DNA of 42,073 nucleotides from a virus, in the IMG/VR virus record IMGVR_UViG_3300035126_000768, positions 1-42,073 of that record; one strand, given 5' to 3'. This document shows positions 4,692 through 29,793 of the stretch, piece after piece (the first letter of the stretch is position 1; every line of letters starts with the position of its first letter). The position numbers and the translations under genes are program-made. The notes under the pieces were generated by a model. The model was given only the letters and a program-made list of their open reading frames with translations. It was not told the DNA's origin and did no database searches.

Positions 4692-4770
4692 CGAAATACT
4701 CCCGGGAACGGGTTGCGCCCGCGGCGGCGGCTATTGAAAGCGCCGCCGCGGGGCACCCGTCAGCACGCCA

Positions 4771-11913: not shown

Positions 11914-12165
11914 CTACATGAATCTTAGTGTACGAGCGCATCCCTCACGCCAATCGACCCAGCCCTTGCGGCGCAGAGCATCCAACTGCACTCGCAGCCC
12001 ATTGAGCGATCGAATACCGACGGCCTGCGCCAACTCGCGGAGCGTGGGCGGATAGCCCGCGGCCGCCAAGCGGATGCCGGCGTCGAGTATTTCGCGCTGC
12101 CTCGGCGTCGGTGCCACGCGGCCGTCGGAGTCCTTCGGCATCCGCTCGATTCGCAGGCCGCCCAT
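11914..12165 (-). CDS. LexA-like winged-helix DNA-binding protein without peptidase (83 aa)
   Basis: The core 'TPRQREILDAGIRLAAAGYPPTLRELAQAVGIRSLNGLRVQLDALRRKGWV' matches the LexA N-terminal DNA-binding domain almost position for position. There is no S24 autopeptidase domain; the protein ends at residue 83. It is therefore a binding-only relative that cannot self-cleave. It may act as a phage transcription factor or compete at host SOS boxes. A copy of the GAGTATTTCG word lies within its own gene (12085-12094). It overlaps the replication gene upstream by one base. Confidence 0.8.
   Translation of the reverse strand: MGGLRIERMPKDSDGRVAPTPRQREILDAGIRLAAAGYPPTLRELAQAVGIRSLNGLRVQLDALRRKGWVDWREGCARTLRFM
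11927..11932 (-). promoter_or_regulatory. -10 promoter element before the nuclease-terminase block
   Basis: The minus strand reads CGTACACTAAG, a -10 like those at 8814 and 27754. Transcription would start near 11920, about 15 bases before the ATG at 11905 with a GAGGA ribosome binding site between. It lies inside the 3' end of the upstream LexA-like gene (ends at 11914), so the packaging and head genes may have their own promoter. Confidence 0.4.
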
Positions 12166-13016
12166 CAGTTCACCGCCTTCGCTTGGGCCAGCCGCTCGAG
12201 CTCGCGGCGGCGGGTGTATTCGAAATCGTCAGCGTCCTTGCCCACGAACGGCTTGGCCTCCGGCCTATCGTCCGGCCGGCCGCGGCCACCGGGGGGCCGC
12301 GGCGAGGTCTTGCCGGCGTCGTACTGGCCGCCCAGCGTCCGCTCCACGAATCCTTCGGCCACGAACTGCATCAGCGTTGGGGGGGTATCGAAATACTTGG
12401 CCGTGCGGAGCCGCTGGATCGCTTCCAGGGCCATAGGCCACCACTCCGGGTCGTTGAGGCGGTCTTCGGCACCGTCTGGCGGCTTGTTGGGCTTCCACTT
12501 CTGGCCGGGACCGTCGTTCCAGGCTTTCCGCAAGTCTGCGAAGCTCGCACGCGGAGGAGGAGGAACTTCTCCTCTATCTCCTCTATCTCCTCTACTGCGC
12601 GTCGGCGCAGGCGACTCCTGCGCTTGAGCGCAGGCAGCCTCGGGACGCTTCCGGCGGTCTGGATCCCGCTCGTTTTGGGCTTTTGCCCGGTCTTGATGCT
12701 GGATTCTGGCCTTCGCCGCCTGGCTGAAACGGCGGTCCCAGCCGGGCACGGCAACCGTGCCGCCGTCCTCGTCGATTTCCAGCCAGCCAACGGCCGCGAC
12801 GGCACGCCAAAAGGCCTCGTCGGCTCCGCACGTCCGCACGAGCCTCGGGATGGTCATTCGTGCCGTACCGTCGGAGCAGTGCAGGGCGGCCCAGCCCCAA
12901 AGACGGTAAAGCCGGAACACGACGGCCTCGACCGACTCGCCGGTTAGGTCGAGGAGCTCCTGCACCTCTGGTTTGTCCGGTAGACCCACGTCCATTGCGA
13001 TCCATTCACCGGCCAT
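12165..13016 (-). CDS. Putative replication initiation protein (283 aa)
   Basis: The N-terminal 100 residues ('WIAMDVGLPDKPEVQELLDLTGESVEAVVFRLYRLWGWA ... FWRAVAAVGWLEIDEDGGTVAVPGWDRRF') look like the winged-helix N-terminus of phage replication/replisome-organiser proteins. A charged low-complexity linker with an RGDRGDRGE repeat follows, then a helical C-terminal region ('FADLRKAWNDGPGQKWKP ... ALEAIQRL') like helicase-loader or primosome tails. The start is chosen by AAAGGAGTG upstream. No other initiator was seen, so it may define the origin. Function is inferred from architecture and neighbours. Confidence 0.6.
   Translation of the reverse strand: MAGEWIAMDVGLPDKPEVQELLDLTGESVEAVVFRLYRLWGWAALHCSDGTARMTIPRLVRTCGADEAFWRAVAAVGWLEIDEDGGTVAVPGWDRRFSQAAKARIQHQDRAKAQNERDPDRRKRPEAACAQAQESPAPTRSRGDRGDRGEVPPPPRASFADLRKAWNDGPGQKWKPNKPPDGAEDRLNDPEWWPMALEAIQRLRTAKYFDTPPTLMQFVAEGFVERTLGGQYDAGKTSPRPPGGRGRPDDRPEAKPFVGKDADDFEYTRRRELERLAQAKAVN
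12570..12597. repeat. Nine-base tandem repeat (CTCCTCTAT, three copies)
   Basis: Three tandem copies of a 9-base unit encode RGDRGDRGE in the linker of the putative replication protein. The repeat keeps frame when copies are gained or lost, so linker length could vary between isolates. Confidence 0.75.
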
Positions 13017-14620: not shown

Positions 14621-14954
14621 CCGATTCCTCCTCTGGTTTCATCCTTGCCGCCCACTGGATCGCAGTGCGGGCGCCGAGCCACGCGTTTACGGTCGTGAGC
14701 TTCCACGTCCCCTTGTCGTCGTCGGCCATCGTTTGCTGCAGATCGAGCAGGTGGCGATAAAACCACTTCGCATACTTGACGATCTGCTCGTCGGTGAGCT
14801 CCGGCAGCGGCAAAGGCGAGCCCTTCACCGCCCGCGGCCCGCACATACGCTTGACCGCAAACTCGCGGTCGAGCGGGTCGTGCTGCGACGCCTCGAATTC
14901 GATGAATTCGCGGAACGTCCGGTTGGCCGGCGACTTTTCGATGTCGTTCATCAT
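14607..14954 (-). CDS. Recombination-block protein, unknown (115 aa)
   Basis: No family recognised. The protein begins MMNDIEKSPANRTFREFIEFE, has 'LTDEQIVKYAKWFYRHLLDLQQTMADDDKGTWKLTTVNAWLGARTAIQWA' with several tryptophans and tyrosines in two helices, and a short acidic tail. The ATG-ATG start overlaps the recombinase stop. It lies between a tyrosine recombinase and an SSB-like protein, so a DNA-metabolism role is likely, but no motif shows which. Confidence 0.6.
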   Translation of the reverse strand: MMNDIEKSPANRTFREFIEFEASQHDPLDREFAVKRMCGPRAVKGSPLPLPELTDEQIVKYAKWFYRHLLDLQQTMADDDKGTWKLTTVNAWLGARTAIQWAARMKPEEESDAVA

Positions 14955-15781
14955 GACGCCACCAGCACGGGGGTTTGCGGGCTGCACTTGCGGATCTGGC
15001 CCCAATCGAGATAGGCCTGGCTGGCGAGCGCCGCCGTCCTGTGACCCAGATGGCGGGTGGCAAGGCCCGGCGACTCAATCTCGATATGGGTCGCCCCAGA
15101 GCGACGCAGGAACTTGCTTGAGCCCACCATCCCGCAGCGGTCCAGATGCTCCTTGAGCAGAATCGCCGCACGACGCCGCTGGACGACCCAGGCCAAGATG
15201 CTGCCATCGGGCGATTGCTCGAGCATTTCCCGGCAGGCCCGCAGGCAGGCCGGCGACAGATGCTTGGTCATCGGGTCGCCCGTCTTCGCCATCGTCCAGC
15301 GGAGCACGTCGCCGTCGAGGTGCTGGCCTGTGAACGAGAAGATGTCGCCCCGCCGGGCACCGCTCTCGTAGCCAAGCAGCAGCCAGCACTTGAGAAACGC
15401 ACCGAGATCGGCTCCGTTCCGCAGGGTTCGCCCGCGGACCTCGTCGGTCTTGGCGATGGCCCGCCGCATTTCCTCGACGGTCCACGCCCGCGTGGGCGGC
15501 CGCTTCGCCTTGATCCGCAACACGCCTCGCGGCGGGTCGTTCACCTTGCCGGCCTCGTAGGCGGCCCGCCAGAGCGAGAGCAGCACCACCCGCTCGGCCT
15601 TGGCCGTGACGGTGGAAACCTGCTCGAGACGCCCCTTGAGGAACGCGTTGACCCGCTCCGTTGAGATCGCCCCGGCCCGCGTCGCGATCCGCGTGACGTT
15701 CTCGGAGTAGTGTCGTGAGACGCTCCGCTGCGAGAGGTAGTCGATGGCGACGGAAACGAAGGTTTCGTAGTGCTCAGACAT
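14951..15781 (-). CDS. Tyrosine recombinase-like protein, second copy (276 aa)
   Basis: A site-specific recombinase relative. R143/R144 (YESGARRGDI), K166 (TMAKTGDP), H247 (RHLGHRT) and Y257 (SQAYLDW) fit the R-K-H-Y set. The usual HxxR box is changed to K-F-L-R-R-S (223-228), so His is replaced by Lys or Phe while Arg stays. The integrase at 18498-19400 has the same change (K-W-L-R-R-S). Its place within the leftward recombination operon, away from attP, suggests a job in multimer resolution or replication rather than integration. Confidence 0.8.
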   Translation of the reverse strand: MSEHYETFVSVAIDYLSQRSVSRHYSENVTRIATRAGAISTERVNAFLKGRLEQVSTVTAKAERVVLLSLWRAAYEAGKVNDPPRGVLRIKAKRPPTRAWTVEEMRRAIAKTDEVRGRTLRNGADLGAFLKCWLLLGYESGARRGDIFSFTGQHLDGDVLRWTMAKTGDPMTKHLSPACLRACREMLEQSPDGSILAWVVQRRRAAILLKEHLDRCGMVGSSKFLRRSGATHIEIESPGLATRHLGHRTAALASQAYLDWGQIRKCSPQTPVLVAS

Positions 15782-16691
15782 TCGACGCCTCGCTTTCCGT
15801 CAGCTCGCGGAGCTTGGCGTCCACCTTGTCCGTCAGGGTCGACCACTGCTCGCTCGAGAGCGTGCCGTCGGCCACCAGGGCGTCGATCCGCTTGGAGATC
15901 GGAGCGATCTTCTTGACCGAGTCGACCGCGTCGATCGCGTCGGCCGCCTTCTTGAAAAGACCGTCGTCGCCCTTGGCCTCCGGCTCCGGCTTGCGAGACT
16001 CGCCGCCGGCCAGCCACGCCGCGAGCCGTCGTCCGGTTTCCTCCGTGATCGGCTTCGGGTCGCCGCCAAAAAGCCCCGTCCGGTCCTTGCTCGCCACCGC
16101 GAAGTGGCCGTCGTGGACGATGTCGAGGCAGAGCGTGAATTCGTATTCCGCACCGTCGCGGCTTTCGAGCTTCATGCCCAACTTGACGACCTTCTTCCTG
16201 CCCCCGTCGTCGACTTGCGCCGTCTCAGTTTTCGCCCGCCCGGTCGCGATGATGTGGGCACTCGACCGCAGCATTGCGTCGATGAAGGCCCGGTGCCGCG
16301 GCGTGATCTCCGAGTAGGCCGACCAAGTGTTTCCGCGAAACTTGGCCTTGGCGATCTCGTCCACGAGCTCGAGGCAGCCGCCGCGTCCGTTCCACTCGTG
16401 CGAAATACTGTCGATGACGATGCAGTCGGCCCCGGCCTGCTCCGCCGTCTGGATCGCCTCGATGTATCGCTCCGGCGTAAACGGCGGGGCGAGGTCGATG
16501 ACACTGAAGTCGGCGAGCGTGTCGTAGAGATCGCTAGAGCCTTGCTCCGTGTCGATAACGACGATGTTCTTGCAGCCGAGCCCCTTGGCCACGAGCAAAC
16601 TGCCGTAGGTCTTCCCGGCGCCGCTGGGTCCGGTAGTGAGCAGTCGCAGCTTAGTTGCCGACCGCTTCGCTTTGCGAATCGAAATTGTCAT
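15774..16691 (-). CDS. Sak4-like RecA-family recombinase (305 aa)
   Basis: Phage single-strand annealing or strand-exchange ATPase. Walker A GPSGAGKT at residues 21-28, Walker B CIVIDS near 90-95, and the conserved 'ITPRHRAFIDAMLRSSAHIIATGRAKTE' region identify the AAA_24/Sak4 group. The C-terminal 70 residues are helical and acidic. It is adjacent to the SSB-like protein as in many phages with this system. The start overlaps the previous stop (ATGA). A copy of AGTATTTCG in reverse (16401-16409) falls in the Walker B region codons. Confidence 0.88.
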   Translation of the reverse strand: MTISIRKAKRSATKLRLLTTGPSGAGKTYGSLLVAKGLGCKNIVVIDTEQGSSDLYDTLADFSVIDLAPPFTPERYIEAIQTAEQAGADCIVIDSISHEWNGRGGCLELVDEIAKAKFRGNTWSAYSEITPRHRAFIDAMLRSSAHIIATGRAKTETAQVDDGGRKKVVKLGMKLESRDGAEYEFTLCLDIVHDGHFAVASKDRTGLFGGDPKPITEETGRRLAAWLAGGESRKPEPEAKGDDGLFKKAADAIDAVDSVKKIAPISKRIDALVADGTLSSEQWSTLTDKVDAKLRELTESEASNV

Positions 16692-16918: not shown

Positions 16919-17146
16919 CTACTCCTTTGGTGCCACGCTCCTTCCGCCCGATCCATCGGACGGCCTTTGACGCAGCGGCTCGCCAAGGCGAATCCGCTGC
17001 AAGACTTCATCGCGGAAGACCATCACGCCGTCGGGGGCGATGATTCCCAGGCGAACGCGGTCGCCTCGCATTTCGCAGACGAGCACGCTGATGCCCAAAT
17101 CGGGGAACACCAGTGACTCACCGGGCTTTCTGGACAGAACCAGCAC
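16919..17146 (-). CDS. csrA: CsrA/RsmA-like RNA-binding regulator (75 aa)
   Basis: Post-transcriptional regulator that binds GGA motifs in mRNA leaders. From the GTG at 17146 the protein reads (M)LVLSRKPGES, the standard CsrA N-terminus, with L4, R6 and E10 in place and the RNA-contacting Arg near residue 45 (VFRDEV). The core 'GDRVRLGIIAPDGVMVFRDEVLQRI' is full length, followed by a 20-residue tail. A perfect AAGGAGG 5 bases before this GTG decides the start over the ATG at 17182. It is an early gene behind the strong leftward promoter, well placed to alter host or phage translation. Confidence 0.9.
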   Translation of the reverse strand: MLVLSRKPGESLVFPDLGISVLVCEMRGDRVRLGIIAPDGVMVFRDEVLQRIRLGEPLRQRPSDGSGGRSVAPKE

Positions 17147-17204
17147 AATCGCCTCCTTGCTAACTGCCGGCTTGCCCGCCATGGCTCGCCGGCCGTCGAT
17201 CCTG

Positions 17205-17944: not shown

Positions 17945-18178
17945 CTACCGCAGCTTGGTTACTGGGACGCCGAGAGCGTCTGCAATCTTGCAGATCGTTT
18001 CAAACTTTGGTTTTGACTTGCCGACGCACAGAGCCCACATCGAGACGGGCGTGATGCCAGCACGGCTAGCAAGGTCGGTGCGGTTCCATCCGCGAGTGGC
18101 CGCCATCTGCTCGATACGCTTGCCGAGCTCGCACACCTTGATCTGCCGCGGCCTGCCGCCTGGGTGCCTGCTGACCAT
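17945..18178 (-). CDS. XRE/Cro-CI-like repressor protein (77 aa)
   Basis: A helix-turn-helix regulator: 'LGKRIEQMAATRGWNRTDLASRAGITPVSMWALCVGKSKPKFETICKIADALGVPVTKLR' is a complete Cro/C1-type domain with only a short basic arm (GGRPRQIKV) before it. The ATG at 18178 has GGAGG 8 bases upstream, which decides the start. It lacks a dimerisation or cleavage domain. It is next to the attP-like site, integrase and early promoter, the normal place of a lysogeny repressor or Cro. An inverted repeat lies just upstream of its start (18191-18239). Confidence 0.8.
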   Translation of the reverse strand: MVSRHPGGRPRQIKVCELGKRIEQMAATRGWNRTDLASRAGITPVSMWALCVGKSKPKFETICKIADALGVPVTKLR

Positions 18179-18190
18179 TTGGATTCCTCC

Positions 18191-18239
18191 GTGAACTCTA
18201 CGCAATTTGCCTCGCCGTCGCGCGACCCGTAGGGTTCAC
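18191..18239. repeat. Inverted repeat upstream of the repressor-like gene
   Basis: GTGAACTCTACG (18191-18202) and CGTAGGGTTCAC (18228-18239) pair over 12 bases with one mismatch, around a 25-base spacer. It lies between the start of the XRE gene and the tRNA-like attP fragment. It could be an operator for the repressor, a pair of integrase or excisionase arm sites, or a leader hairpin. Confidence 0.65.
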
Positions 18240-19821: not shown

Positions 19822-19966
19822 TTCACGCTCCTCGTTTGGGTGGGTCGAATCCTACGCGTGAAAAGTTTTTCGGTCTAGCAGTCGAAGAATTTGGCAGGGC
19901 GCGCACGGACTCGACGCTAAAGTGGAGTTCGCAGCCGGGGGCAGGGCGGCGGAGGAGGCGGAAGGA

Positions 19967-20047: not shown

Positions 20048-20073
20048 CGAGTATTTCGGAATCGAAATACTCG
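20048..20073. promoter_or_regulatory. Operator-like dyad 1 (CGAGTATTTCG, GAAT, inverse)
   Basis: A perfect inverted repeat with 11-base arms CGAGTATTTCG and CGAAATACTCG around a GAAT spacer. The arms are the recurrent word of this genome in head-to-head pairs. Such symmetry suggests a dimeric DNA-binding protein. It is in the divergent control region. Confidence 0.8.
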
Positions 20074-20125
20074 CGGCCGTCGGCCGGCCCCGACAACCCG
20101 CAACACGGAGCCCCGACGGCCGGCC

Positions 20126-20147
20126 AGTATTTCGGAATCGAAATACT
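20126..20147. promoter_or_regulatory. Operator-like dyad 2 (AGTATTTCG, GAAT, inverse)
   Basis: A second copy of the dyad with 9-base arms and the same GAAT spacer, 78 bases to the right of dyad 1 start to start. Identity of the spacer shows that the full 22-base site, not only the arm, is conserved. Confidence 0.8.
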
Positions 20148-20358: not shown

Positions 20359-20481
20359 AATGGCCGATGGCGTTTTTCGATTTCGCCAAAGTGTCCATTT
20401 GGAAATATCGCGGGCGAAACTCGCGGCCGCCGGAATTCTGGCCAGAAATTTGCCCGAAAAACTTTTTTTAGATTCCAGCCC

Positions 20482-20509
20482 TTGCACACTTATTGCCGAG
20501 TGATAATAT
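20482..20509 (+). promoter_or_regulatory. Rightward promoter P1 with TTATTGCCGA core
   Basis: TTGCAC (20482-20487) and TAATAT (20504-20509) are 16 bases apart. The spacer carries TTATTGCCGA (20490-20499), repeated at two more promoters downstream. A T-run and GATTCCAGCCCTT lie directly upstream, also repeated at P3. It drives the gene at 20530 with a leader of about 15 bases. Confidence 0.75.
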
Positions 20510-20529: not shown

Positions 20530-21132
20530 ATGGACATTCAAAAGCACAAGCAAACCGCCGCGAATCTTGGCCTTGATTGGTCGATCGTGCGGGCGATCTA
20601 CTCAGAGCTCCGCGAACTCGAGACTATGGGCATCGCCCGCACGCTTGAGGCCCGCCGCATTGCCTACGCTGCGCTCGGCCATCGCCACGGGGGCACGTTC
20701 AAACTCGCCAATCGGCACGCCGTCACGATTGGCGATCAAACGAACCTCCGCCACTTCGACGACGTGGCCCGTGAACTGGCCGCGACCGACATTCCCGAAC
20801 TAGGGCAGGACGACCCCGCCGCCGCCCTCTACGAGCTCGTGACGGCCCCGGCCCCGGTGCTGCCGACGGCCGACGAGACTATGGCCGCGGCGATCGACCG
20901 GGCCGCCGCGGAGATCGCCGCCGCCGCTCCGGCCACGTCGGCCGACGAGCTCTTGCCGCTGCCGGCCGCCGCCGCTCTAGCCGACGTGACGGAGCAATGG
21001 CTCCGCCAACTCGTCAAGGCCGGCCGTGTGCCCGGCCAGCGTATCGGCCGCTCGTGGCTCGTGCCGCGATCGGCCGCCGAAAGTTTCCGCCGGCACCCCA
21101 CGATGGGCCGGCCGCGATTTGCCCCGTTCTAA
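20530..21132 (+). CDS. Excisionase-like winged-helix protein with long N-terminus (200 aa)
   Basis: The C-terminal 60 residues ('LPLPAAAALADVTEQWLRQLVKAGRVPGQRIGRSWLVPRSAAESFRRHP') match the excisionase/MerR-type winged helix, ending in a basic tail TMGRPRFAPF. The N-terminal 100 residues are helical, with no family recognised. It shares the C-terminal tail pattern (S-A-A-x-x-F-[KR]-R-x-P ... GRPR) with the 75-aa protein at 22792-23019. First gene of the rightward operon; ATG 20530 has GGGAGA upstream and follows P1. It may regulate P1-P3 or act in excision. Confidence 0.75.
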   Translation: MDIQKHKQTAANLGLDWSIVRAIYSELRELETMGIARTLEARRIAYAALGHRHGGTFKLANRHAVTIGDQTNLRHFDDVARELAATDIPELGQDDPAAALYELVTAPAPVLPTADETMAAAIDRAAAEIAAAAPATSADELLPLPAAAALADVTEQWLRQLVKAGRVPGQRIGRSWLVPRSAAESFRRHPTMGRPRFAPF

Positions 21133-21373: not shown

Positions 21374-21486
21374 CCGCGGCCCCACGGCCACCGGCCGCCG
21401 CTCGTGGCGGCCGGGCACCGTGCGGCCGGGCACATCGCCCGACACACAACCCGGCGGACAACCCGCCACAACCTAGGAGCCCAAAC

Positions 21487-21891
21487 ATGAACGCTTGGAA
21501 ATATACCGCCGCCGAACGCCGGACGATTGACGCAGCCTATTCCGCGATCGAATACGTGGCCGACCATATGGGGCACTCGCAGCCGCGGGCGCTGCGTGAC
21601 GCGCTCCGCCACGAGCGGCGCGAGCGTAGCAGCGTCACAACTGCTAAGGCTTTGCTCGTGGCCGGATTCATTCGCGGCCGCGTGGACAACCCGCCGGCGG
21701 CCGATCTGGCTTGCCATTCGGCCGGCATCATCACTGCCACCATCATCGGCGCCGACTCTCGCCGATTCGACAGGCCGGCCGACGTGCTCGAGAAGCTGGC
21801 CGCACTCGCGGCCGCCGCCGCCCAGGCCCAGGCCGACTACATCGACCGCAACGCGCGAGCGGCCCGCGAGGAGATCGCCGCCGCCCAGTAG
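21487..21891 (+). CDS. Early protein, helical (134 aa)
   Basis: Not recognised. 'MNAWKYTAAERRTIDAAYSAIEYVADHMGHSQPRALRDALRHERRERSSVTTAKALLVAGFIRGRVDNPPAADLACHSAG' has several helices and a possible helix-turn-helix look; the rest is alanine-rich (ADVLEKLAALAAAAAQAQ). Ribosome binding site CTAGGAGCCC before the ATG. Confidence 0.6.
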   Translation: MNAWKYTAAERRTIDAAYSAIEYVADHMGHSQPRALRDALRHERRERSSVTTAKALLVAGFIRGRVDNPPAADLACHSAGIITATIIGADSRRFDRPADVLEKLAALAAAAAQAQADYIDRNARAAREEIAAAQ

Positions 21892-22012
21892 CCGCGGCCT
21901 CCCCCGTGCCGGCCCCGGGGCAACCCGCGGCCGGCTAGGGGGCTGCCGGGCACGTCGCCCACAACCCAACACAACCCGCGGCCGATGGCCGCACAACCCA
22001 GGAGCCCCGACG

Positions 22013-22285
22013 ATGAAATTGACCTACAAAAACGGCCTTGCGGTAACGCTTTCTAAATCAGGCTTTTTCGAATTGCACTCCGCCGGGCAATTGGTCGGCC
22101 GGATTCAGTTTCGCAAAAACTTTTTCGGCAAATGGGCGGCCGACTGCTATGGCTTTGACGGGGACGGTTTCCGGCTGGACCGAGTTTTGCATAGCCAATC
22201 CGATCTCCGCGAGGCCCGCCGGCTCGCGAGCGAGTGGGCAGAGGGAGTAGATCGCCACTGCCACGCCTGCAGCCTGCCCAACTGA
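22013..22285 (+). CDS. Small early protein (90 aa)
   Basis: Not recognised. The protein is beta-rich ('LTYKNGLAVTLSKSGFFELHSAGQLVGRIQFRKNFFGKWAADCYGFDGDGF') with a helix and a C-terminal His/Cys cluster (DRHCHACSLPN) that could bind metal. It has the operon's standard CAGGAGCCCCGACG leader. Overlapping longer frames on the same strand are rejected. Confidence 0.65.
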   Translation: MKLTYKNGLAVTLSKSGFFELHSAGQLVGRIQFRKNFFGKWAADCYGFDGDGFRLDRVLHSQSDLREARRLASEWAEGVDRHCHACSLPN

Positions 22286-22330
22286 ACCCACAACGGACAA
22301 CCCACAACGGACAACCCAGGAGCCCCACCC

Positions 22331-22690
22331 ATGCCCGCATATGCCACGAAAGAAATCGACCACGCCGCCTACCCGCAGATTTGCCGCCGCCGCTCGTTGG
22401 CTGAATTGGAATTCGTCATCGCCGATTGCCGCTCCGCCCTCGCGGCCATGCCCGACGGCCCGAAGGCCGGCTATTACATGGATGAGATCCACTACTGCCA
22501 CGCCGAGATCATGCGACGCCAGGCCGGCGGGAAGCGTGCCGGCCGCCGCTCGCCGGGCGTGTCGATCGTGGCCGACGTGCACGCCGCCGCCGGCCAGCCG
22601 CTTTCCGATGACGAGCTCGACGCCCTCGAGGGGCTGCCGGGCTCGGCTCTGGCCGACGAGCTCGTTTATCTGGCCGACTACCAGGGGTAG
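22331..22690 (+). CDS. Early protein, unknown (119 aa)
   Basis: Not recognised. 'YPQICRRRSLAELEFVIADCRSALAAMPDGPKAGYYMDEIHYCHAEIMRRQ' is helical with conserved-looking His/Cys. The C-terminal 50 residues are acidic (LSDDELDALEGLPGSALADELVYLADYQG). Leader CCCAGGAGCCCCACCC before the ATG. Confidence 0.65.
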   Translation: MPAYATKEIDHAAYPQICRRRSLAELEFVIADCRSALAAMPDGPKAGYYMDEIHYCHAEIMRRQAGGKRAGRRSPGVSIVADVHAAAGQPLSDDELDALEGLPGSALADELVYLADYQG

Positions 22691-22757
22691 ACAACCCACA
22701 GCGGACAACCCGGGGACAACCCGTGCCGGACAACCCGGGCCGGACAACCCGGGCCGC

Positions 22758-22785
22758 TTGACCATAGGAAACAAATGGCAATAAT
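22758..22785 (+). promoter_or_regulatory. Sigma70-like promoter before the small winged-helix gene
   Basis: TTGACC (22758-22763) and AATAAT (22780-22785) are separated by 16 bases. The ATG at 22792 is only 6 bases after the -10, so the transcript would be leaderless or nearly so. No ribosome binding site serves that ATG; the AGGAAACAA upstream belongs to an out-of-frame ATG at 22775. Confidence 0.45.
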
Positions 22786-22791
22786 CCAGCC

Positions 22792-23019
22792 ATGCCACCG
22801 AAAATCGACCCATCGCTCTACGTCCGAATCGGCACCGCGGCCAAGCTGGCGGGCGTGTCCCGCCTCTGGATGCGGAAGCAGGTCGAGAGCGGCGCGATCG
22901 CCGGCGTTGAGATTGACGGCCAATGGTTCGCCCTCCGGTCGTCGGCCGCCGCGTTCAAGCGTGACCCCGTCGGCCGTGGCCGGCCTCGAGCCGACGCCAC
23001 CAAGAAGGCCGGGAAGTAG
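22792..23019 (+). CDS. Small excisionase-like winged-helix protein (75 aa)
   Basis: 'YVRIGTAAKLAGVSRLWMRKQVESGAIAGVEIDGQWFALRSSAAAFKRDP' is a complete excisionase/MerR-type winged helix followed by the basic tail VGRGRPRADATKKAGK. It is related to the C-terminus of the 200-aa protein at 20530-21132. It lies just upstream of promoter P3, so it may regulate it. It may be the phage excisionase (directionality factor) or a repressor of the rightward operon. Confidence 0.75.
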   Translation: MPPKIDPSLYVRIGTAAKLAGVSRLWMRKQVESGAIAGVEIDGQWFALRSSAAAFKRDPVGRGRPRADATKKAGK

Positions 23020-23046
23020 CCCCAAGATTTTTTTTGATTTCAGCCC

Positions 23047-23074
23047 TTTACTCTTTATTGCCGATGGGTAATAT
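23047..23074 (+). promoter_or_regulatory. Rightward promoter P3 with TTATTGCCGA core
   Basis: TTTACT and TAATAT (23069-23074) are 16 bases apart with TTATTGCCGA (23055-23064) in the spacer, matching P1. A T-run and GATTTCAGCCCTT come directly before, as in P1 (GATTCCAGCCCTT), so the whole promoter unit looks duplicated. Confidence 0.7.
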
Positions 23075-23123
23075 ACACACATGGGCAGCAGCGAGCGGCC
23101 CGCCACTAACTAGGAGAAATGAA

Positions 23124-23357
23124 ATGACGACCATCGAAAAGAACGCAGCCGTTAGCCGGATGATCCTCGCCCGCGTGTCCACCGGGGCGACGCTCGCCGC
23201 AGCCATCGACGCCGTGCTCGGGGCCGGCAGCTATCAGGCCATCGCGTCCGATCTCTACGACGCCATGCGAGCGGCCCCGGCCGTGGCCGATGACCCCGAC
23301 GCGATCGTGCTCGAGGCCTGCCCGGCCAGCGAGCGTTTCCTGAGCATCAACGACTAG
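23124..23357 (+). CDS. Small early protein (77 aa)
   Basis: Not recognised. 'TTIEKNAAVSRMILARVSTGATLAAAIDAVLGAGSYQAIASDLYDAMRA' is helical, with an acidic tail. The ATG at 23124 is the second of two; the first (23119) opens a two-codon frame ATG-AAA-TGA directly behind TAGGAG, so translation of this gene may depend on re-initiation. It is the first gene after P3. Confidence 0.65.
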   Translation: MTTIEKNAAVSRMILARVSTGATLAAAIDAVLGAGSYQAIASDLYDAMRAAPAVADDPDAIVLEACPASERFLSIND

Positions 23358-23404
23358 CACCACAACCCACCTACACAACCCGCCACAACCCAGGAGCCCC
23401 CACC

Positions 23405-23668
23405 ATGCACGCCTCCAACTTTGAAACCGATCTCGCCCAGGTGCTCGAGGCCGACCCGCTCACGCGGCCCGTCGTCGACGCCATCGCCGCCGGCCGGGAA
23501 TTGCCGGACGCGTTCTTGATCCTCGACACCTACCACGACATCGGCGAGCCCGTGAGCGCCCACCGCTGCGAGCGTATCCGCCGAGAGGTCCGCGACGCTC
23601 TCGCCGCCGCGGGCCTCGCCATGCCCACCACCTACACCATGCTCGACGACAGGAGGAGCGACCGATGA
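23405..23668 (+). CDS. Early protein upstream of primase (87 aa)
   Basis: Not recognised. 'NFETDLAQVLEADPLTRPVVDAIAAGRELPDAFLILDTYHDIGEPVSAHRCERIRREVRDALAAAG' with an ordered helical look. Its stop overlaps the prim-pol start (ATGA), so the two are coupled and may act together. Confidence 0.65.
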   Translation: MHASNFETDLAQVLEADPLTRPVVDAIAAGRELPDAFLILDTYHDIGEPVSAHRCERIRREVRDALAAAGLAMPTTYTMLDDRRSDR

Positions 23669-24165
23669 ACGACATCGCAGCACTGGCCGCCGCCGGCTGC
23701 CGGTTTGTCCGGCTCGCCCGACGCGAGAAGCGCCCGCTCGGGGCCGCATGGCAAACCAGATCGACGGACAGCCCGGGCGACGTGGCCGCATGGCTCGCCG
23801 CTAGTTCGAATGTGGGGCTTCTGCTCGGCCCGGCCTCCGGCGTTGTCGACGTGGAATTCGACGACGACGACGGCCGGGCGACGCTCGAGCGGCTCGGCCT
23901 TGTCGACGTGGCCACCCCGACGTGGCGATCGGCTCGCGGCGAGCACCGGCTTTTCCGCTGGGCCGATACGCTGCCGCCCGTGGCCGTGGCCAAGGTCGAC
24001 GGCCTCGAGGTCCGCATCGGCGGCCGGGCCGCTCAATCAGTGCTCCCGCCGTCGATTCACCCCGACGGCCAGGCCTACGCATGGACAACCCACCCGGCCG
24101 CCGTGGAGGTCGCGGCCTTCCCTCAAAGACTCATGGAGGAGTTATGCGGAAACGTCGTCGGCTAA
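23665..24165 (+). CDS. Stand-alone prim-pol domain protein (166 aa)
   Basis: Bifunctional DNA primase/polymerase N-terminal domain. The pattern 'SSNVGLLLGPASGVVDVEFDDDDG' gives the D62/E64 metal site, 'GEHRLFRW' contains H94, and 'GLEVRIGGRAAQSVLPPSIHPDG' the E115/R117 region and the signature loop. Usually this domain is fused to a helicase; here it ends after 166 residues, and no helicase was found in the window. It probably primes phage replication together with a host helicase. Next gene downstream starts within it (24144). Confidence 0.85.
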   Translation: MNDIAALAAAGCRFVRLARREKRPLGAAWQTRSTDSPGDVAAWLAASSNVGLLLGPASGVVDVEFDDDDGRATLERLGLVDVATPTWRSARGEHRLFRWADTLPPVAVAKVDGLEVRIGGRAAQSVLPPSIHPDGQAYAWTTHPAAVEVAAFPQRLMEELCGNVVG

Positions 24166-24308
24166 TCCGCCGGACAACCCGGCCGCAATGGGACGAGTGG
24201 ATTCGTGCCCTCGTGCTCGTGCGGCTCGGGCAGGAGCTCGGCACCGAGACGCCGCTCGCCCGGGCCGTGCATGACGCGATCGCCGCCCTAATCGGGGCGA
24301 TCCGCTGA
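24144..24308 (+). CDS. Small basic protein at end of rightward operon (54 aa)
   Basis: MRKRRRLIRRTTRPQWDEWI is a very basic N-terminus followed by two helices (ALVLVRLGQELG, ARAVHDAIAALIGAI). The ATG has GGAGG 4 bases upstream and overlaps the end of the prim-pol gene. It likely binds nucleic acid; partner of the primase is a guess. Its end overlaps the convergent gene at 24288 by 21 bases. Confidence 0.65.
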   Translation: MRKRRRLIRRTTRPQWDEWIRALVLVRLGQELGTETPLARAVHDAIAALIGAIR

Positions 24309-24674
24309 CCGCTCGGCGGCGATCTGGCGGGACAACCCGCGGAGCATCACCCGCCACGCCCGATCGGCCAGCCAGAGATCGAGCACGCAGCTACAGATCG
24401 ACGCCACGAGGCCGCCGAGAAAGAGATCCCAGAGCGGGCCGACATCGTGCCGGGCCTCGTATTGCTCCCGAACCTGGGCACGCACGAGGAGCATCGCGTG
24501 AGCGGCCGCGGCGTTGTTCTTGCCGCCGTGCCGCTCGATGGCTTCGACGTGATTGTGCGGCCAGTGCCGGACAACCATCCGCGTGAGCTCGTGCACGCGG
24601 GCACGGCCAGCCATACGGGCACGCTGGCCGCATTGTTCCGAGACGTGGACGACGAGCCGCTCTAGGGCTTCCAT
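24288..24674 (-). CDS. Protein with one membrane segment, last leftward gene (128 aa)
   Basis: A helical N-terminal domain with many histidines (ERLVVHVSEQCG ... VRHWPHNHVEAIERHGG) precedes one hydrophobic stretch (LFLGGLVASICSCVLDLWLADRAW, about residues 86-108) and a basic tail. No family recognised. It is the last gene of the long leftward unit, in a set of small membrane proteins around the cysteine peptidase; a holin- or spanin-like lysis role is possible but unproven. Confidence 0.6.
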   Translation of the reverse strand: MEALERLVVHVSEQCGQRARMAGRARVHELTRMVVRHWPHNHVEAIERHGGKNNAAAAHAMLLVRAQVREQYEARHDVGPLWDLFLGGLVASICSCVLDLWLADRAWRVMLRGLSRQIAAERSADRPD

Positions 24675-24677
24675 GCT

Positions 24678-24974
24678 TCACCGTGGCGGGCACTTGCCAT
24701 CGGGGCAGGGGAGGGCGGGCTTCCGCTTGCATCGCTCACAGGTGCAGGTACACCGCTGCTCGATCCGCCCGTCGGGCTTCCAGATTCCATTCACGCACGT
24801 CCGACCGCAGACGCACTCAGCGGGGGCCGGGGCCGGTGGCGCCGGGCCGTCGGCGATCATGCTCGCTCGAGCGGCGGCGACTGCGGCGGCCGCCCGTGGC
24901 GCCTCCGCGTCGACGGCCCCCGGGCCGGCCGACAACGACACGAGCCAGGCGACGAGCCATTCGTAAAGCGTCAC
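24678..24974 (-). CDS. Cysteine-rich protein with N-terminal membrane segment (98 aa)
   Basis: A GTG start one base after the previous stop gives VTLYEWLVAWLVSLSAGPGA, a short hydrophobic anchor or signal. A long alanine/proline linker leads to a C-terminal Cys cluster ('CVCGRTCVNGIWKPDGRIEQ', 'CTCTCERCKRK', 'PCPDGKCPPR') with ten cysteines that could form disulfides outside the cytoplasm or bind zinc. Function unknown; no homologue recognised. Confidence 0.6.
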   Translation of the reverse strand: MTLYEWLVAWLVSLSAGPGAVDAEAPRAAAAVAAARASMIADGPAPPAPAPAECVCGRTCVNGIWKPDGRIEQRCTCTCERCKRKPALPCPDGKCPPR

Positions 24975-24975
24975 G

Positions 24976-25242
24976 CTACCACCCCCTGCCGTGTTGAATC
25001 GTGGCGTAGCCGTCTTCGCCCACGTCGCCGTGAGCGTGGACGAGCGGGCGATCCTGGGCCGGCGGGCCTTCGGCAAAAATCATGATCCAAAGGGCGGTCT
25101 TTGCGGCCCGGGCGATCCAGCGGAGGACTGGGCGATCCTGCGGCGGGGCGAACGGCTGCGGCTGCGGGGCAGGGGAGCCGGAAAACCACCAGACGAGCAC
25201 GCCAGCGGCCAAGAGCAGGAGAGTATTTCGATCAACCTTCAT
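24976..25242 (-). CDS. Small membrane-anchored protein (88 aa)
   Basis: Starts MKVDRNTLLLLAAGVLVWWF, a single membrane segment, then a proline-rich stretch (SGSPAPQPQPFAPPQDRP), a second hydrophobic patch (RAAKTALWIMIFAEGPP) and a short acidic/His tail. No family recognised. GAGTATTTCG (25221-25230) falls in codons 5-8. Confidence 0.6.
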   Translation of the reverse strand: MKVDRNTLLLLAAGVLVWWFSGSPAPQPQPFAPPQDRPVLRWIARAAKTALWIMIFAEGPPAQDRPLVHAHGDVGEDGYATIQHGRGW

Positions 25243-25250
25243 GGCACCCC

Positions 25251-26384
25251 CTAAAACGACAACTTGAATACGTCGGCCACAAGCCGGGCGGTCGACGGCC
25301 GGCGGCCGATGGTTTCCACCGGCATCGGCTGCAGCCATTCGCCGTTATGGATCTCACGCCAGCCCCAACCCGCTACCGAACCCACCGCAAACGAATCTTC
25401 GCCGGCGAGCATCCGCTCGACCGTCTTCCGGTCCGCCCAGAAACAACCCTCGGGCATATCCTCCGGCCACCGCGGGCCGGAGATCCACGACTCAGACCAG
25501 CTATTCGCAATCAGCATCCCGTCGCGCGGGCTGCCATTCTTTTGGTAGCGAACTCCGATCAGGCAGAGGCAATGAGCCCACTGGCCAGAGGGGGCCGCCC
25601 AGCCCCCGTCTGTGCGGACGGAAGCGAATCCCTGCATTGAACAGACAGGGATCGCAAAACCAGCCTCGACAGCCGCGGCCGCTTCGTCCCACGTCTTCAC
25701 CAGCGAAACGTATTTGCATGGATGCTTCTTCGCGATCGCGTCGAGCCGGCCCTTATCACCCTGGCCACCGTTGCCGTGGTTTCCCCATTGCTTAGCCCGA
25801 TCGCCGGAGTAGATGCGGAGATCGTGGCCGGCTACGACCTCGCGATACACGACGCCCCAATCACGAGCCCAGCGGGCCGCGGCGCCGCCGTATGACCCAT
25901 CGCTCCACCCGCCCGACCCCTCGGGCTTGTTGCGGGCCTCGACACGCGACCCGCCATAGATGGATTCCGTGCAGGGCAGCAGCGGCGGCTCCTGCAGTTG
26001 GCCGTTCTGCCAATCGACGCTCTCCGAAACGAAGATGCCCAGCCCCCACCCGAACGCCACACAGTCGCCGATCGATTGCCGCCACACCTTGAACGGCGTG
26101 CCGTAGCGTGCCCGGTGGGCCTTGTCGGCGGCCCGATACAGGAACGTGTCGACGCCCCGGGCCTTCGCCATGCACTCGGGGGCGGCTTGGGAAAACCGCG
26201 GCTCGTCGAGCTCTTGGAGAAACTGCCGCGTGCCCTCGGGATTGGGTGTGTACCCAAAACGACCACCAAACCCGACCGTGCCCTCGAGGAGCAGCCCGGC
26301 CCGAATGGCCACGAGCACGGCCAGGCCAAGCAGCAGTCCGGCAACCGCGAGGCGGAACCGTGCAGTGTCGTCAACGCGTCGCAT
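25251..26384 (-). CDS. Membrane-anchored papain-like cysteine peptidase (377 aa)
   Basis: An N-terminal signal anchor (residues 12-33, LAVAGLLLGLAVLVAIRAG) holds a C1-like peptidase domain. Visible catalytic set: Q103 and C108 in QSIGDCVAFGWG, H271 in GQWAHCLCLIGV, N294-S295-W296 in LIANSWSESW. Papain-like enzymes are rare in phages. It is in the cluster of small membrane proteins at the distal end of the leftward unit, where lysis genes often lie, and no peptidoglycan hydrolase was recognised elsewhere. ATG 26384 is chosen because the anchor starts there; it overlaps the upstream gene by 14 bases. Confidence 0.8.
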   Translation of the reverse strand: MRRVDDTARFRLAVAGLLLGLAVLVAIRAGLLLEGTVGFGGRFGYTPNPEGTRQFLQELDEPRFSQAAPECMAKARGVDTFLYRAADKAHRARYGTPFKVWRQSIGDCVAFGWGLGIFVSESVDWQNGQLQEPPLLPCTESIYGGSRVEARNKPEGSGGWSDGSYGGAAARWARDWGVVYREVVAGHDLRIYSGDRAKQWGNHGNGGQGDKGRLDAIAKKHPCKYVSLVKTWDEAAAAVEAGFAIPVCSMQGFASVRTDGGWAAPSGQWAHCLCLIGVRYQKNGSPRDGMLIANSWSESWISGPRWPEDMPEGCFWADRKTVERMLAGEDSFAVGSVAGWGWREIHNGEWLQPMPVETIGRRPSTARLVADVFKLSF

Positions 26385-26838
26385 CAGCGGCGGCCCTCGC
26401 GAGATTGCGGTACGCGTCAACCCAGGCCGACCGCTGCTTGTCACTCACCGGACCGCCGGCCGTGCCGACTGCCGTATCGAGGTAGGTATGGATCGCGTCG
26501 CGGGCCGCCGGCTGCCGCTCGCCGATGCTCACGCCCCGGCAGCGGAGCTCACGCGACCGCGTCCGCAAGGCGTCAAACTGGACAGCGTTTTTCAGGAACG
26601 GCTCGGCCTGCCGGCCATCCCAAGCGATCTCGTCGGCGAGCTCCGCACAGAGCGCCGAGATCGTGGCCGCATCCTCCGCCCCCGTCGGCCCGGTGAACTT
26701 GCCGCGGAGCATCACCGGCAGCGGCTCCGGCGGGAACGGCTCGGGGCTCGGCGGCGTTGCCGGGCGGTCGACAACCCAGGCGAACAGGGCACCGACAACC
26801 AGGGCACCGGCCAGAAGGTATCGGGATCGCTCGCTCAT
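26371..26838 (-). CDS. Membrane-anchored periplasmic protein (155 aa)
   Basis: MSERSRYLLAGALVVGALFA is a membrane anchor, followed by a proline-rich hinge (RPATPPSPEPFPPEPLP) and a helical domain with 'AATISALCAELADEIAWDGRQAEPFLKNAVQFDALRTRSRELRCRG'. No family recognised. Its start overlaps the stop of the next gene upstream (ATGA), and its stop lies within the peptidase gene, so it is probably translated with the peptidase. Confidence 0.65.
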   Translation of the reverse strand: MSERSRYLLAGALVVGALFAWVVDRPATPPSPEPFPPEPLPVMLRGKFTGPTGAEDAATISALCAELADEIAWDGRQAEPFLKNAVQFDALRTRSRELRCRGVSIGERQPAARDAIHTYLDTAVGTAGGPVSDKQRSAWVDAYRNLARAAADATR

Positions 26839-27089
26839 TGGTCGCTCCCTGCCACGAGTGCCAGCGTCAGCGTGTCGATCGCGGCCCGGGCCTGCTCGGT
26901 GAGCTGCTGCGTCTCGAGCAGTCGCAGCCGGACAACCGCCAAGTCGGCGATCGCCCCCTGGTAGGTCGGGCCGGCGGGCCGGTGGGCCGGCATCGCGAGG
27001 CCGCCACCGACGACCGACGCCGCACGACCCACGAGCCACGGGCAGGCGGTGAGCAGAGCCGCCACGGCCAGAGCAGTTGCCAGAATCAT
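26835..27089 (-). CDS. Small membrane protein (84 aa)
   Basis: MILATALAVAALLTACPWLV is a single hydrophobic segment or a lipoprotein-like signal (LLTAC), followed by a helix (AIADLAVVRLRLLETQQLTEQARAAIDTLTLALV) that may form a coiled coil. A TAATG junction with the gene upstream fixes the start. An Rz1- or spanin-like partner for the neighbours is possible. Confidence 0.6.
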   Translation of the reverse strand: MILATALAVAALLTACPWLVGRAASVVGGGLAMPAHRPAGPTYQGAIADLAVVRLRLLETQQLTEQARAAIDTLTLALVAGSDQ

Positions 27090-27766: not shown

Positions 27767-28564
27767 TCAGATAGGGGGCTCGTAGGGTGGCGTGCACCCG
27801 GGGCCGCGGAGTTTGTTCTCGTTGAGATGCGGCCAGAGCGTGTCTGAATGGATCGCGGCTAGGAGCCCCCAAGCCGCGTGCGGCAGGTGCGGCTCGGAGC
27901 GGTCGCCGGCCAAGAATTGAAAGATGTGGCGGAGCGCGTGATTCAAAAGGTCTGGAACGTCCATGCCGCGCTCCCAGTTGTGGGCCGAGTATTTCGCAGC
28001 CCCTTCGGCGCACGTTCTCGCGACCGCCTCGAGGCCGATCGGCGAGATCAAGTCGTAGCGGGTTGCCTCCGCATCGCTTGAGCGGACGGCCCCGGTGGCA
28101 AACCTCGTGCGGTCGCCGTCGACAACCTTGTCGGCCGCCGGTGGCAGGGTCGACACAACCTCGGCCACGGGCTCCGGCACTTCGCCGGATTGAATCCGCT
28201 CGATCACTTGCTCGCGTCGTGCGTTGACGGCCGCCCAGGCGGCCTCGAGCTGCTCTGGCGTCATTGACGCCCCCACCCGCTGCGGCTCGACCTCGAGCGG
28301 TGGCTGCGGCTCGGCTGGCGTGAGCGTGTAGCGGTCGTTCGCCTTTACGAAGTCTTCGGGCAGCCCGCTAAACGCCGTGTCGATCGCCTCTTGCAGTCCC
28401 ATCGCTCGGTCCTCCTTGGTGACGTGTCGCAGGTGTTTCAGGATGCGGAGCACGTCTGCGGCAAGAGAGCCAGATGTGCCCGTAAAAGCGCCGCTAAAGC
28501 GTCTAGCGCGCTGCTCCGCCTCGCGTAGATACTCCTCCGTGAGAATGTCGCCTGAGTTTGCCAT
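27767..28564 (-). CDS. dATP/dGTP diphosphohydrolase-like domain protein (265 aa)
   Basis: The C-terminal 95 residues ('TRYDLISPIGLEAVARTCAEGAAKYSAHNWERGMDVPDLLNHALRHIFQFLAGDRSEPHLPHAAWGLLAAIHSD') match the phage family formerly DUF5664, now listed as a dATP/dGTP diphosphohydrolase N-terminal domain (PF18909). The N-terminal 150 residues are helical and not recognised. The ATG at 28564 is used, since the longer frame runs into the phosphoesterase gene. It may adjust nucleotide pools during replication. GAGTATTTCG lies in its family motif codons (27987-27996). Confidence 0.75.
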   Translation of the reverse strand: MANSGDILTEEYLREAEQRARRFSGAFTGTSGSLAADVLRILKHLRHVTKEDRAMGLQEAIDTAFSGLPEDFVKANDRYTLTPAEPQPPLEVEPQRVGASMTPEQLEAAWAAVNARREQVIERIQSGEVPEPVAEVVSTLPPAADKVVDGDRTRFATGAVRSSDAEATRYDLISPIGLEAVARTCAEGAAKYSAHNWERGMDVPDLLNHALRHIFQFLAGDRSEPHLPHAAWGLLAAIHSDTLWPHLNENKLRGPGCTPPYEPPI

Positions 28565-28569
28565 TCGCT

Positions 28570-29793
28570 CTACCGTGCCTGAGTGTTCACTATTCCCCGC
28601 CGCTCGGGCCGGGGGCCGCTGCAAAACATTCCCACGACCCCGCCCGCTGGATCGTAGAAATACGATTCCATCGCTCGGCGTGCCCCGATCCATCCATTGC
28701 TCGCGTGGTAGTCGTCGGCCGGCCCCAACGACGGGGCCACCCGCACGAGCACCGAATCAACCGTTTCGATGGGCAGTGACCACTCGGCGGCCTGGGAGTG
28801 GAAGTGCCCGGTATGAATCTCGCGGTAGGTCGTCCGCCCCCAAACGTCGGCGGCCTCAAGGGCCATCAGCTGAGGGAGCCGACGCTTTGCCCTATGTCCA
28901 TGCGCTATGCCGATTAGGTTCTGGCCGTGGTGGAGATACTGCCGGCCGGTGAGCCTCTCCGAAATACTCGTGCGACGGTCGCGGCGGAACCGCTCCAGCA
29001 AGATCCGCTGAAACGCAAACGTCAGCGTTTCGTCGTGGTTGCCGTGGACGATCGACACGTCGGTCGGGCATGTGGCCGCGGACCGCTCGATCAATCCCAG
29101 CAGGCAATCGGAGCCGACTCCAATCATCTTCTGCAGCCGGCCGTCAAGGCTGCCGGCCATCGGCGTGCCGCCGGTCGTCGTGCCGCTGATCGTGTCGTAA
29201 TGGAAGAGATCGCCCACGAGCAGGATCGACCGCCGGCTCGGCTTGTAGACGGCGTCGCCCTTGTCGAGCAGATCGCGGCCGGCGTCGCCCACCACCTTCT
29301 CGGCGATCGAGAGGTCGTAGTCCGCGTCGCCGGTGCCAGCCCGCCAGCAGTATTTTCCGAAATGGGTATCCGCGATCACGACAACCTGCCACGGGCCGGG
29401 GTCGCGGCGCTTGTGCGGCTTGATCGCGGGGCGGCGAATCTCTTTGGCCGCGGCTTGGATCATGGCCGCGACACACTCGACAACCCCCGGGCCGGGCCGC
29501 GGCTTGAGTCGAACCCAAACGCGATGCAATTCCGTCACGGTCGCCGTGCCGTCAGCGTCCGACGTGGCAACCTCCCATTTGGTTGCCTCACTCGCACTGA
29601 CTTCGTATCGCTCGAGGTCGGCCTCGATATGGCGGAGGAGATCCTCGACAGTGCGGATGCGGGCCGAGACGCTGCGGGCTTCGAGCGTGTCGCCATCGCG
29701 AGACTGCGTGACTTGCTCAGACTTCTCGGGCGGGCGGCCGGCGGCCATCGCGGCCTTCTCGGCGATCGCCTGGGCTATTTTCTTCGCAGCCAA
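28570..29793 (-). CDS. Calcineurin-like metallophosphoesterase (407 aa)
   Basis: All motifs of the family are present: ADTHFG (141-146), GDLFHYD (194-200), GNHDE (251-255), then GIAHGHR and HTGHFHSQ. The N-terminal 130 residues are a separate helical/beta region (TVEDLLRHIEADLERYEVSA, ATVTELHRVWVRLKPRPGPGVVECV). Substrate unknown; relatives act on nucleic acids, nucleotides or phosphoproteins. It starts inside the preceding 91-aa gene (19-base overlap). A reverse copy of GAGTATTTCG lies at 28960-28969. Confidence 0.88.
   Translation of the reverse strand: MAAKKIAQAIAEKAAMAAGRPPEKSEQVTQSRDGDTLEARSVSARIRTVEDLLRHIEADLERYEVSASEATKWEVATSDADGTATVTELHRVWVRLKPRPGPGVVECVAAMIQAAAKEIRRPAIKPHKRRDPGPWQVVVIADTHFGKYCWRAGTGDADYDLSIAEKVVGDAGRDLLDKGDAVYKPSRRSILLVGDLFHYDTISGTTTGGTPMAGSLDGRLQKMIGVGSDCLLGLIERSAATCPTDVSIVHGNHDETLTFAFQRILLERFRRDRRTSISERLTGRQYLHHGQNLIGIAHGHRAKRRLPQLMALEAADVWGRTTYREIHTGHFHSQAAEWSLPIETVDSVLVRVAPSLGPADDYHASNGWIGARRAMESYFYDPAGGVVGMFCSGPRPERRGIVNTQAR

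Follow-up and report, generated by a model that had tools for sequence, protein, structure and literature searches.

Two perfect inverted repeats ahead of the early operon of a phage appear, from comparison with related genomes, to form the main cluster of a short sequence word. Selection has kept this word at around twelve further positions of the genome, as well as in dozens of relatives. The window analysed is a whole IMG/VR record of 42,073 bp. The copies of the word are probably bound by a protein of the phage whose gene lies nearby, the most likely candidate being an Xis/BldC-like winged-helix protein encoded at 20530–21132, a choice made by association. On balance, and with slightly more confidence than doubt, we read the dyads as this phage's form of a family-wide main array for a phage-encoded candidate binder, with about 12 selected half-sites elsewhere, nearly all of them intragenic.

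Each dyad is an exact repeat of 22 bp, AGTATTTCG-GAAT-CGAAATACT (that is, AGTATTTCGGAATCGAAATACT), the first at 20050–20071 and the second, identical to it, at 20126–20147. The initial annotation had described two full dyads with the same GAAT spacer, 78 bp apart; they are exact and identical as it stated, and their starts lie 76 bp apart. Its further claim that head-to-head pairs occur only here is borne out by a scan of the whole window for TATTTC/GAAATA inverted pairs with a gap of 0–11 bp, which found none besides the two dyads. Neither dyad arose in any of 100 dinucleotide-preserving shuffles, even when three mismatches were allowed. Dyad 1 is conserved in the relatives G001 and G002 and dyad 2 in G001, and a scan of the collection picked out two close relatives with the dyad, one carrying two dyads 74 bp apart and the other a single dyad. 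The annotation had staked its proposal on finding the dyads in close relatives that share the gene order, and there they are: two in G001, one in G002 and two in G016, whose dyads have CAAG, CATG and CGAG as spacers in place of the GAAT common to both window dyads. A degenerate third dyad (AAATATCG-CGGG-CGAAACTC) lies at 20403–20422; at the same place the dyad is intact in G016/L021 and L020 and nearly intact in L019, some 115–129 bp before the early gene in G016, L020 and L019.

Several other accounts of the dyads were set aside. Bacterial genomes also contain exact matches to the dyad; these differ in their spacers, have hardly any additional words nearby, and were put down to chance. An RNA element is not indicated, as no Rfam or tRNA match was obtained and the strand neutrality of the word, described below, also argues against it. 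Many contigs break near the array, as a genome end might require, but they do so at differing points within hairpins and tandem repeats, so that assembly breaks seem likelier. The edges of the control region are marked by a 13-bp perfect inverted pair, AAAAGTTTTTCGG at 19861–19873 and CCGAAAAACTTTT at 20454–20466, 580 bp apart, both arms of which contain AGTTTTTCG, one base off the word. To the left of the array, a block running from AGTTCGCAGCCGGGG to GGAAGGACC (19926–19965) is conserved in most relatives and has no Rfam match.

The word itself, AGTATTTCG, is the most over-represented 9-mer of the window: trinucleotide composition predicts 0.13 copies, and 16 exact ones are present, 12 of them not in the dyads. 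Expected counts are taken from a second-order Markov model. A portal-protein search recovered 70 loci, mostly at 60–70% identity; the relatives are all uncultured and many of their contigs are partial. Among cultured phages no close relative was found (portal about 27% identity), nor was any found among plasmids. Across the phage family, whose portal proteins are only about 65% identical, the 8-mer GTATTTCG is enriched 10- to 50-fold and ranks near the top of all 8-mers in almost every large record, at 7–19 copies per record versus 0.3–1.2 expected, while the reversed, non-complemented pattern, serving as a control in the relatives, gave 0–1 matches per strand. The word is enriched in 17 of the 18 relatives read in large part, the clear exception being G007 (60% portal identity), which has two copies of GTATTTCG; G013, a 32-kb fragment, has one copy of the word. 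A chance origin of the dyads and the word was rejected in view of the shuffles, the over-representation of the 9-mer and the enrichment in relatives. Among its other genes, the window encodes a CsrA-like regulator (16919–17182) and a tyrosine-integrase-like protein (14951–15781; PHROG 1, 2.6e-14), the latter suggesting that the phage may be temperate; other relatives have different or no detectable integrases.

The 12 single copies are scattered along the genome. Two lie antisense in the terminase gene, at 10042–10050 (plus strand; same position in G003 and G005) and 10789–10797 (plus; kept in G003, G008 and G018), and another is antisense in a LexA-type HTH gene (12086–12094, plus). Further copies fall in a replication-initiation-like gene (12389–12397, minus; kept as GTATTTCG in G004, G006, G009 and G018), in an AAA (Sak4-like) gene (16401–16409, minus), near a gene start (25222–25230, plus; kept in G003 and G015) and in a metallophosphoesterase-like gene (28960–28968, minus; kept as AGT ATT TCG in G003, G015 and G016). 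The remainder are at 4692–4700 (minus), 27988–27996 (plus), 36700–36708 (plus), 41045–41053 (minus) and 41292–41300 (plus). Thirteen of the GTATTTCG sites in the window are within predicted genes, and few are intergenic.

In nucleotide alignments these sites are retained far more often than other low-GC 8-mers. Retention of the word is 18/18 versus an expected 0.72 between the window's genome (G000) and G001, 13/13 versus 0.66 for G009–G010, 11/11 versus 0.60 for G006–G011, 10/11 versus 0.60 for G003–G015, 4/4 versus 0.11 for G000–G003 and 5/8 versus 0.10 for G006–G009, the aligned pairs sharing history, so that P values are nominal, and the loci not being independent. Codon-based alignments agree for the closer relatives. 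Several more distant pairs retain no word site, indicating that sites turn over. Within the terminase gene, one site preserves GAA ATA CTC, rare codon ATA included, in G003 and also in G005 (59% identity), and the second preserves GAA ATA in G003, G008 and G018. With one genome taken per clade, intragenic words show no strand bias (26 sense versus 27 antisense), and the evenness of site spacing along the genome is no different from random. A common peptide was rejected as the cause because the words occur in each of the three reading frames and on either strand, and rare codons persist. On these alignments the single sites are maintained by selection, and the view that they are merely weak secondary copies falls away.

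Strand-neutral intragenic 8-mers that turn over would also fit a host-protein site or a Chi-like recombination signal acquired through shared hosts. This we consider improbable. On the 77-kb contig G010 the 40 kb of phage holds 17 copies, whereas the other 37 kb, partly phage-like, holds none; G007 is word-poor; and a single place carries both dyads of a fixed 4-bp gap and phased arrays.

That place was surveyed in 46 loci which encode a homologue of the 20530–21132 protein and have at least 370 bp of upstream DNA. The word occurs within 800 bp of the homologue gene in 38 of them, and 34 have at least two same-strand words within that distance, mostly two or three copies. Relative to the gene, 92 array words are on the plus and 7 on the minus strand, the minus ones including dyad arms. 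Neighbouring copies are 32–34 bp apart in 29 of 55 cases, mostly 33 bp, and other spacings (21–22, 43–44 and 54–55 bp) are likewise close to multiples of 11, a near-helical step. These four classes dominate; spacings of 29–30, 36, 41, 47, 57, 60, 74 and 88 bp are also seen. In L022, L145, L146, L025 and L147 the array lies 1.4–3.9 kb upstream in the same orientation, and near two TEQW loci, L183 and L026, no array was seen. The 4-bp-gap dyad recurs: it is present in the window, G001, G002, G016, L020 and L147, the last three having other spacers, and G017, L145 and L146 carry it with mismatches in the right arm. This recurrence across lineages indicates that the dyad is one of two layouts of the same array.

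The initial annotation had taken the dyads for the primary operator of a dimer in a divergent control region. They are indeed the main cluster of their site family, but they overlap neither promoter. The early promoter, recognised by eye as TTGCAC-N16-TAATAT at 20482–20509 (plus strand), is 335–411 bp from the two perfect dyads and holds a TTATTGCC-type imperfect dyad in its spacer. In many relatives it has a clade-specific dyad of its own between −35 and −10, such as attctgccGATCggtagaat in G008, tatttgccGATCggcatata in G009 and ttgttgccGATAggtaacaa in L020. This promoter-internal dyad looks like an ordinary, fast-evolving operator of the early promoter, beside which the GTATTTCG network is a second, conserved layer. 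The idea of a local operator pair for a dimer at divergent promoters, with weak half-sites arising elsewhere by chance, draws on the perfection and identity of the dyads and on their non-coding position between divergent genes. Given the distance to an early promoter with its own dyad in many relatives, an operator of divergent promoters is not supported. The leftward gene is, moreover, not conserved, and in G008, G009 and G014 the gene on the left apparently points rightward, which means that divergence is no common feature; with the single sites retained by selection as well, we regard this idea as very improbable.

Two further repeated elements were noted in the early region. A promoter element, TTATTGCCGA followed by (A/T)ATAT, recurs before several early genes (window 20493, 21140 and 23058), and the dyad between its −35 and −10 differs between clades and is likely the early-promoter operator. 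A second over-represented word, GGACAACCC, has 12 copies versus 0.2 expected, at 21457–26931 and mainly on the plus strand, often in tandem between genes (22296–22743); relatives have CACAACCA, CAACCCAT or GTGGAAAC, so that this word changes between clades, unlike GTATTTCG.

Four candidate binders had been named at the outset, and the early gene at 20530–21132 (plus strand) emerged as the best of them. It encodes a 200-aa protein, modelled with AlphaFold2 (pLDDT 83.6) as a helical N-terminal part followed by a MerR/Xis-like winged helix at residues 139–191. By VIA-align these residues resemble BldC (Z 6.9), Xis (5.2–5.8), RacA (5.2) and GlnR, the best match being 6ama (Z 6.9 over 53 residues, 2.4 Å). 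Foldseek with the 200-aa protein gave no match at E≤0.001. The protein scores 24.6 bits against Pfam HTH_17, below the gathering cut-off of 27, matches a PHROG excisionase at 4.3e-7 and is 49% identical over 47 aa to the excisionase of mycobacteriophage Anaya. A homologue is present in all word-carrying records in which the early region is covered and is absent from the word-poor G007. The [TS]EQW helix is found in 53 of 54 family loci (L180 included), the exception being L177 (SPVW) with a single word in 15.7 kb. These 54 loci hold 256 words versus 14.7 expected, and 153 versus 14.0 outside the 800-bp zone; the 23 loci with other helices (22 out-group loci and L160) hold 14 versus 4.9, a roughly 3-fold enrichment indicating specificity that is strong but not absolute, and common descent confounds the association of helix and word. 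Searching with only the N-terminal domain brought in no further phages. L160, the second helix variant within the family (SEFW, read by eye), encodes the winged helix in a small upstream gene of its own (3460–3650), whereas in most relatives it is part of the early protein; this natural domain split goes with no word in 8 kb of the locus.

Should the network belong to another phage protein, two would come into question: the stand-alone LexA-type HTH protein of 83 aa (11914–12165, minus strand) and a 75-aa paralogous winged-helix protein (22792–23019, plus strand) with an AT-hook-like GRGRPR tail. Like the 200-aa protein, both are lacking in G007 and encoded by almost every genome that carries the word, and LexA-type HTHs bind dyads. 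However, the recognition-helix stretches of both vary between clades whose core word is identical, G005 and G017 lack the 75-aa protein, and neither gene is beside the array in most genomes. The gene of the 200-aa protein, by contrast, adjoins the array in most relatives, and its helix TEQWLRxLVxAG is nearly invariant, like the core word. The 200-aa protein is therefore preferred, and either alternative binder seems rather unlikely. The Cro-like HTH protein encoded at 17945–18205, the remaining candidate, was not found in the word-rich relatives G006, G009, G010 and G011 and was rejected.

Iteron-like direct repeats about 33 bp apart beside an early operon encoding a Prim-Pol, and the presence of RacA, a MerR-like centromere-type protein, among the fold matches, would suit a replication origin or centromere, the dispersed words then being secondary sites of an initiator or partition protein. 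We hold this to be rather unlikely too, and a shade more so than another phage binder. The control regions have no DnaA box and show no GC-skew switch. The replication-initiation-like gene at 12165–13016 was not found in word-rich G005, G010 and G011, which also removes its product from the candidate binders. A ParABS-type partition system was rejected as ParA, sought as PF13614 only, is absent in 11 records.

With the early protein as the preferred binder, a number of parallels can be drawn with known systems. The C1 operators of phage P1 are asymmetric monovalent sites scattered over the genome together with bivalent inverted pairs, mostly at promoters; the sites described here share the mixture of scattered single sites and inverted pairs, and differ in sequence and in location. 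The stoperators of cluster A mycobacteriophages (L5, TipsytheTRex) are asymmetric short repressor sites at more than 20 genome places, control-region operators included; their orientation matches that of transcription, and they are located in promoters or in small gaps between genes (PMC9283540, PMC6550527). As there, one short phage-specific site is present in many copies (16 versus 0.13 expected, and family-wide), yet here the sites are strand-neutral (26 versus 27) and mostly intragenic, so that they depart from stoperators in both orientation and location. Among the proteins scanned, no repressor with an N-terminal HTH and a stoperator domain was recognised. The SPbeta repeated element SPBRE is also a phage-specific motif at several places and is bound by a master repressor, MrpR (PMC10516654), the arrangement proposed here; SPBRE, however, lies in promoter or intergenic regions and MrpR has a tyrosine-recombinase fold, whereas the present sites are mostly intragenic and the proposed binder is a winged-helix protein. 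The predicted winged-helix fold of residues 139–191 resembles the MerR-like ones of BldC, Xis and RacA. In BldC repeats such as GAATTTCGC an AT-rich stretch is combined with C-G (PMC5859096), a resemblance to GTATTTCG that is suggestive only; the repeats that BldC recognises are about 9 bp long and directly adjoin one another head to tail, whereas the arrays here have copies mostly 33 bp apart and some 4-bp-gap dyads, and the proposed binder has a 135-residue N-terminal region unlike BldC.

In the mechanism we propose, the early protein would occupy the array cooperatively, close to its own operon, and would also bind the dispersed sites or bridge them; it may thereby regulate or silence the genome as a whole, as in the scattered-operator systems of P1 C1 or L5 Rep. 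Orientation-neutral, intragenic sites misfit one-way transcription stops and point to DNA-level bridging, hence cooperative array binding with bridging or local silencing is favoured; an effect on transcription or genome folding is hypothetical. A stronger version, in which the Xis/BldC-like protein bridges or compacts the phage genome through the intragenic sites as a nucleoid organiser, the dyad or array being its nucleation centre, is an unlikely though conceivable extension, one we rate just ahead of a different phage binder.

To our knowledge, genome-wide operator networks of phages are described in only a few model systems, with sites at promoters or at one-direction transcription stops. 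The present family, which has no close cultured relatives in the phage collection, maintains 8–19 copies of one word, mostly intragenic and in both orientations, and at these positions selection overrides codon preference. A repeated word found by eye can thus expose a site network across uncultured phages and, if confirmed, the network would represent another route by which a single phage protein acts genome-wide.
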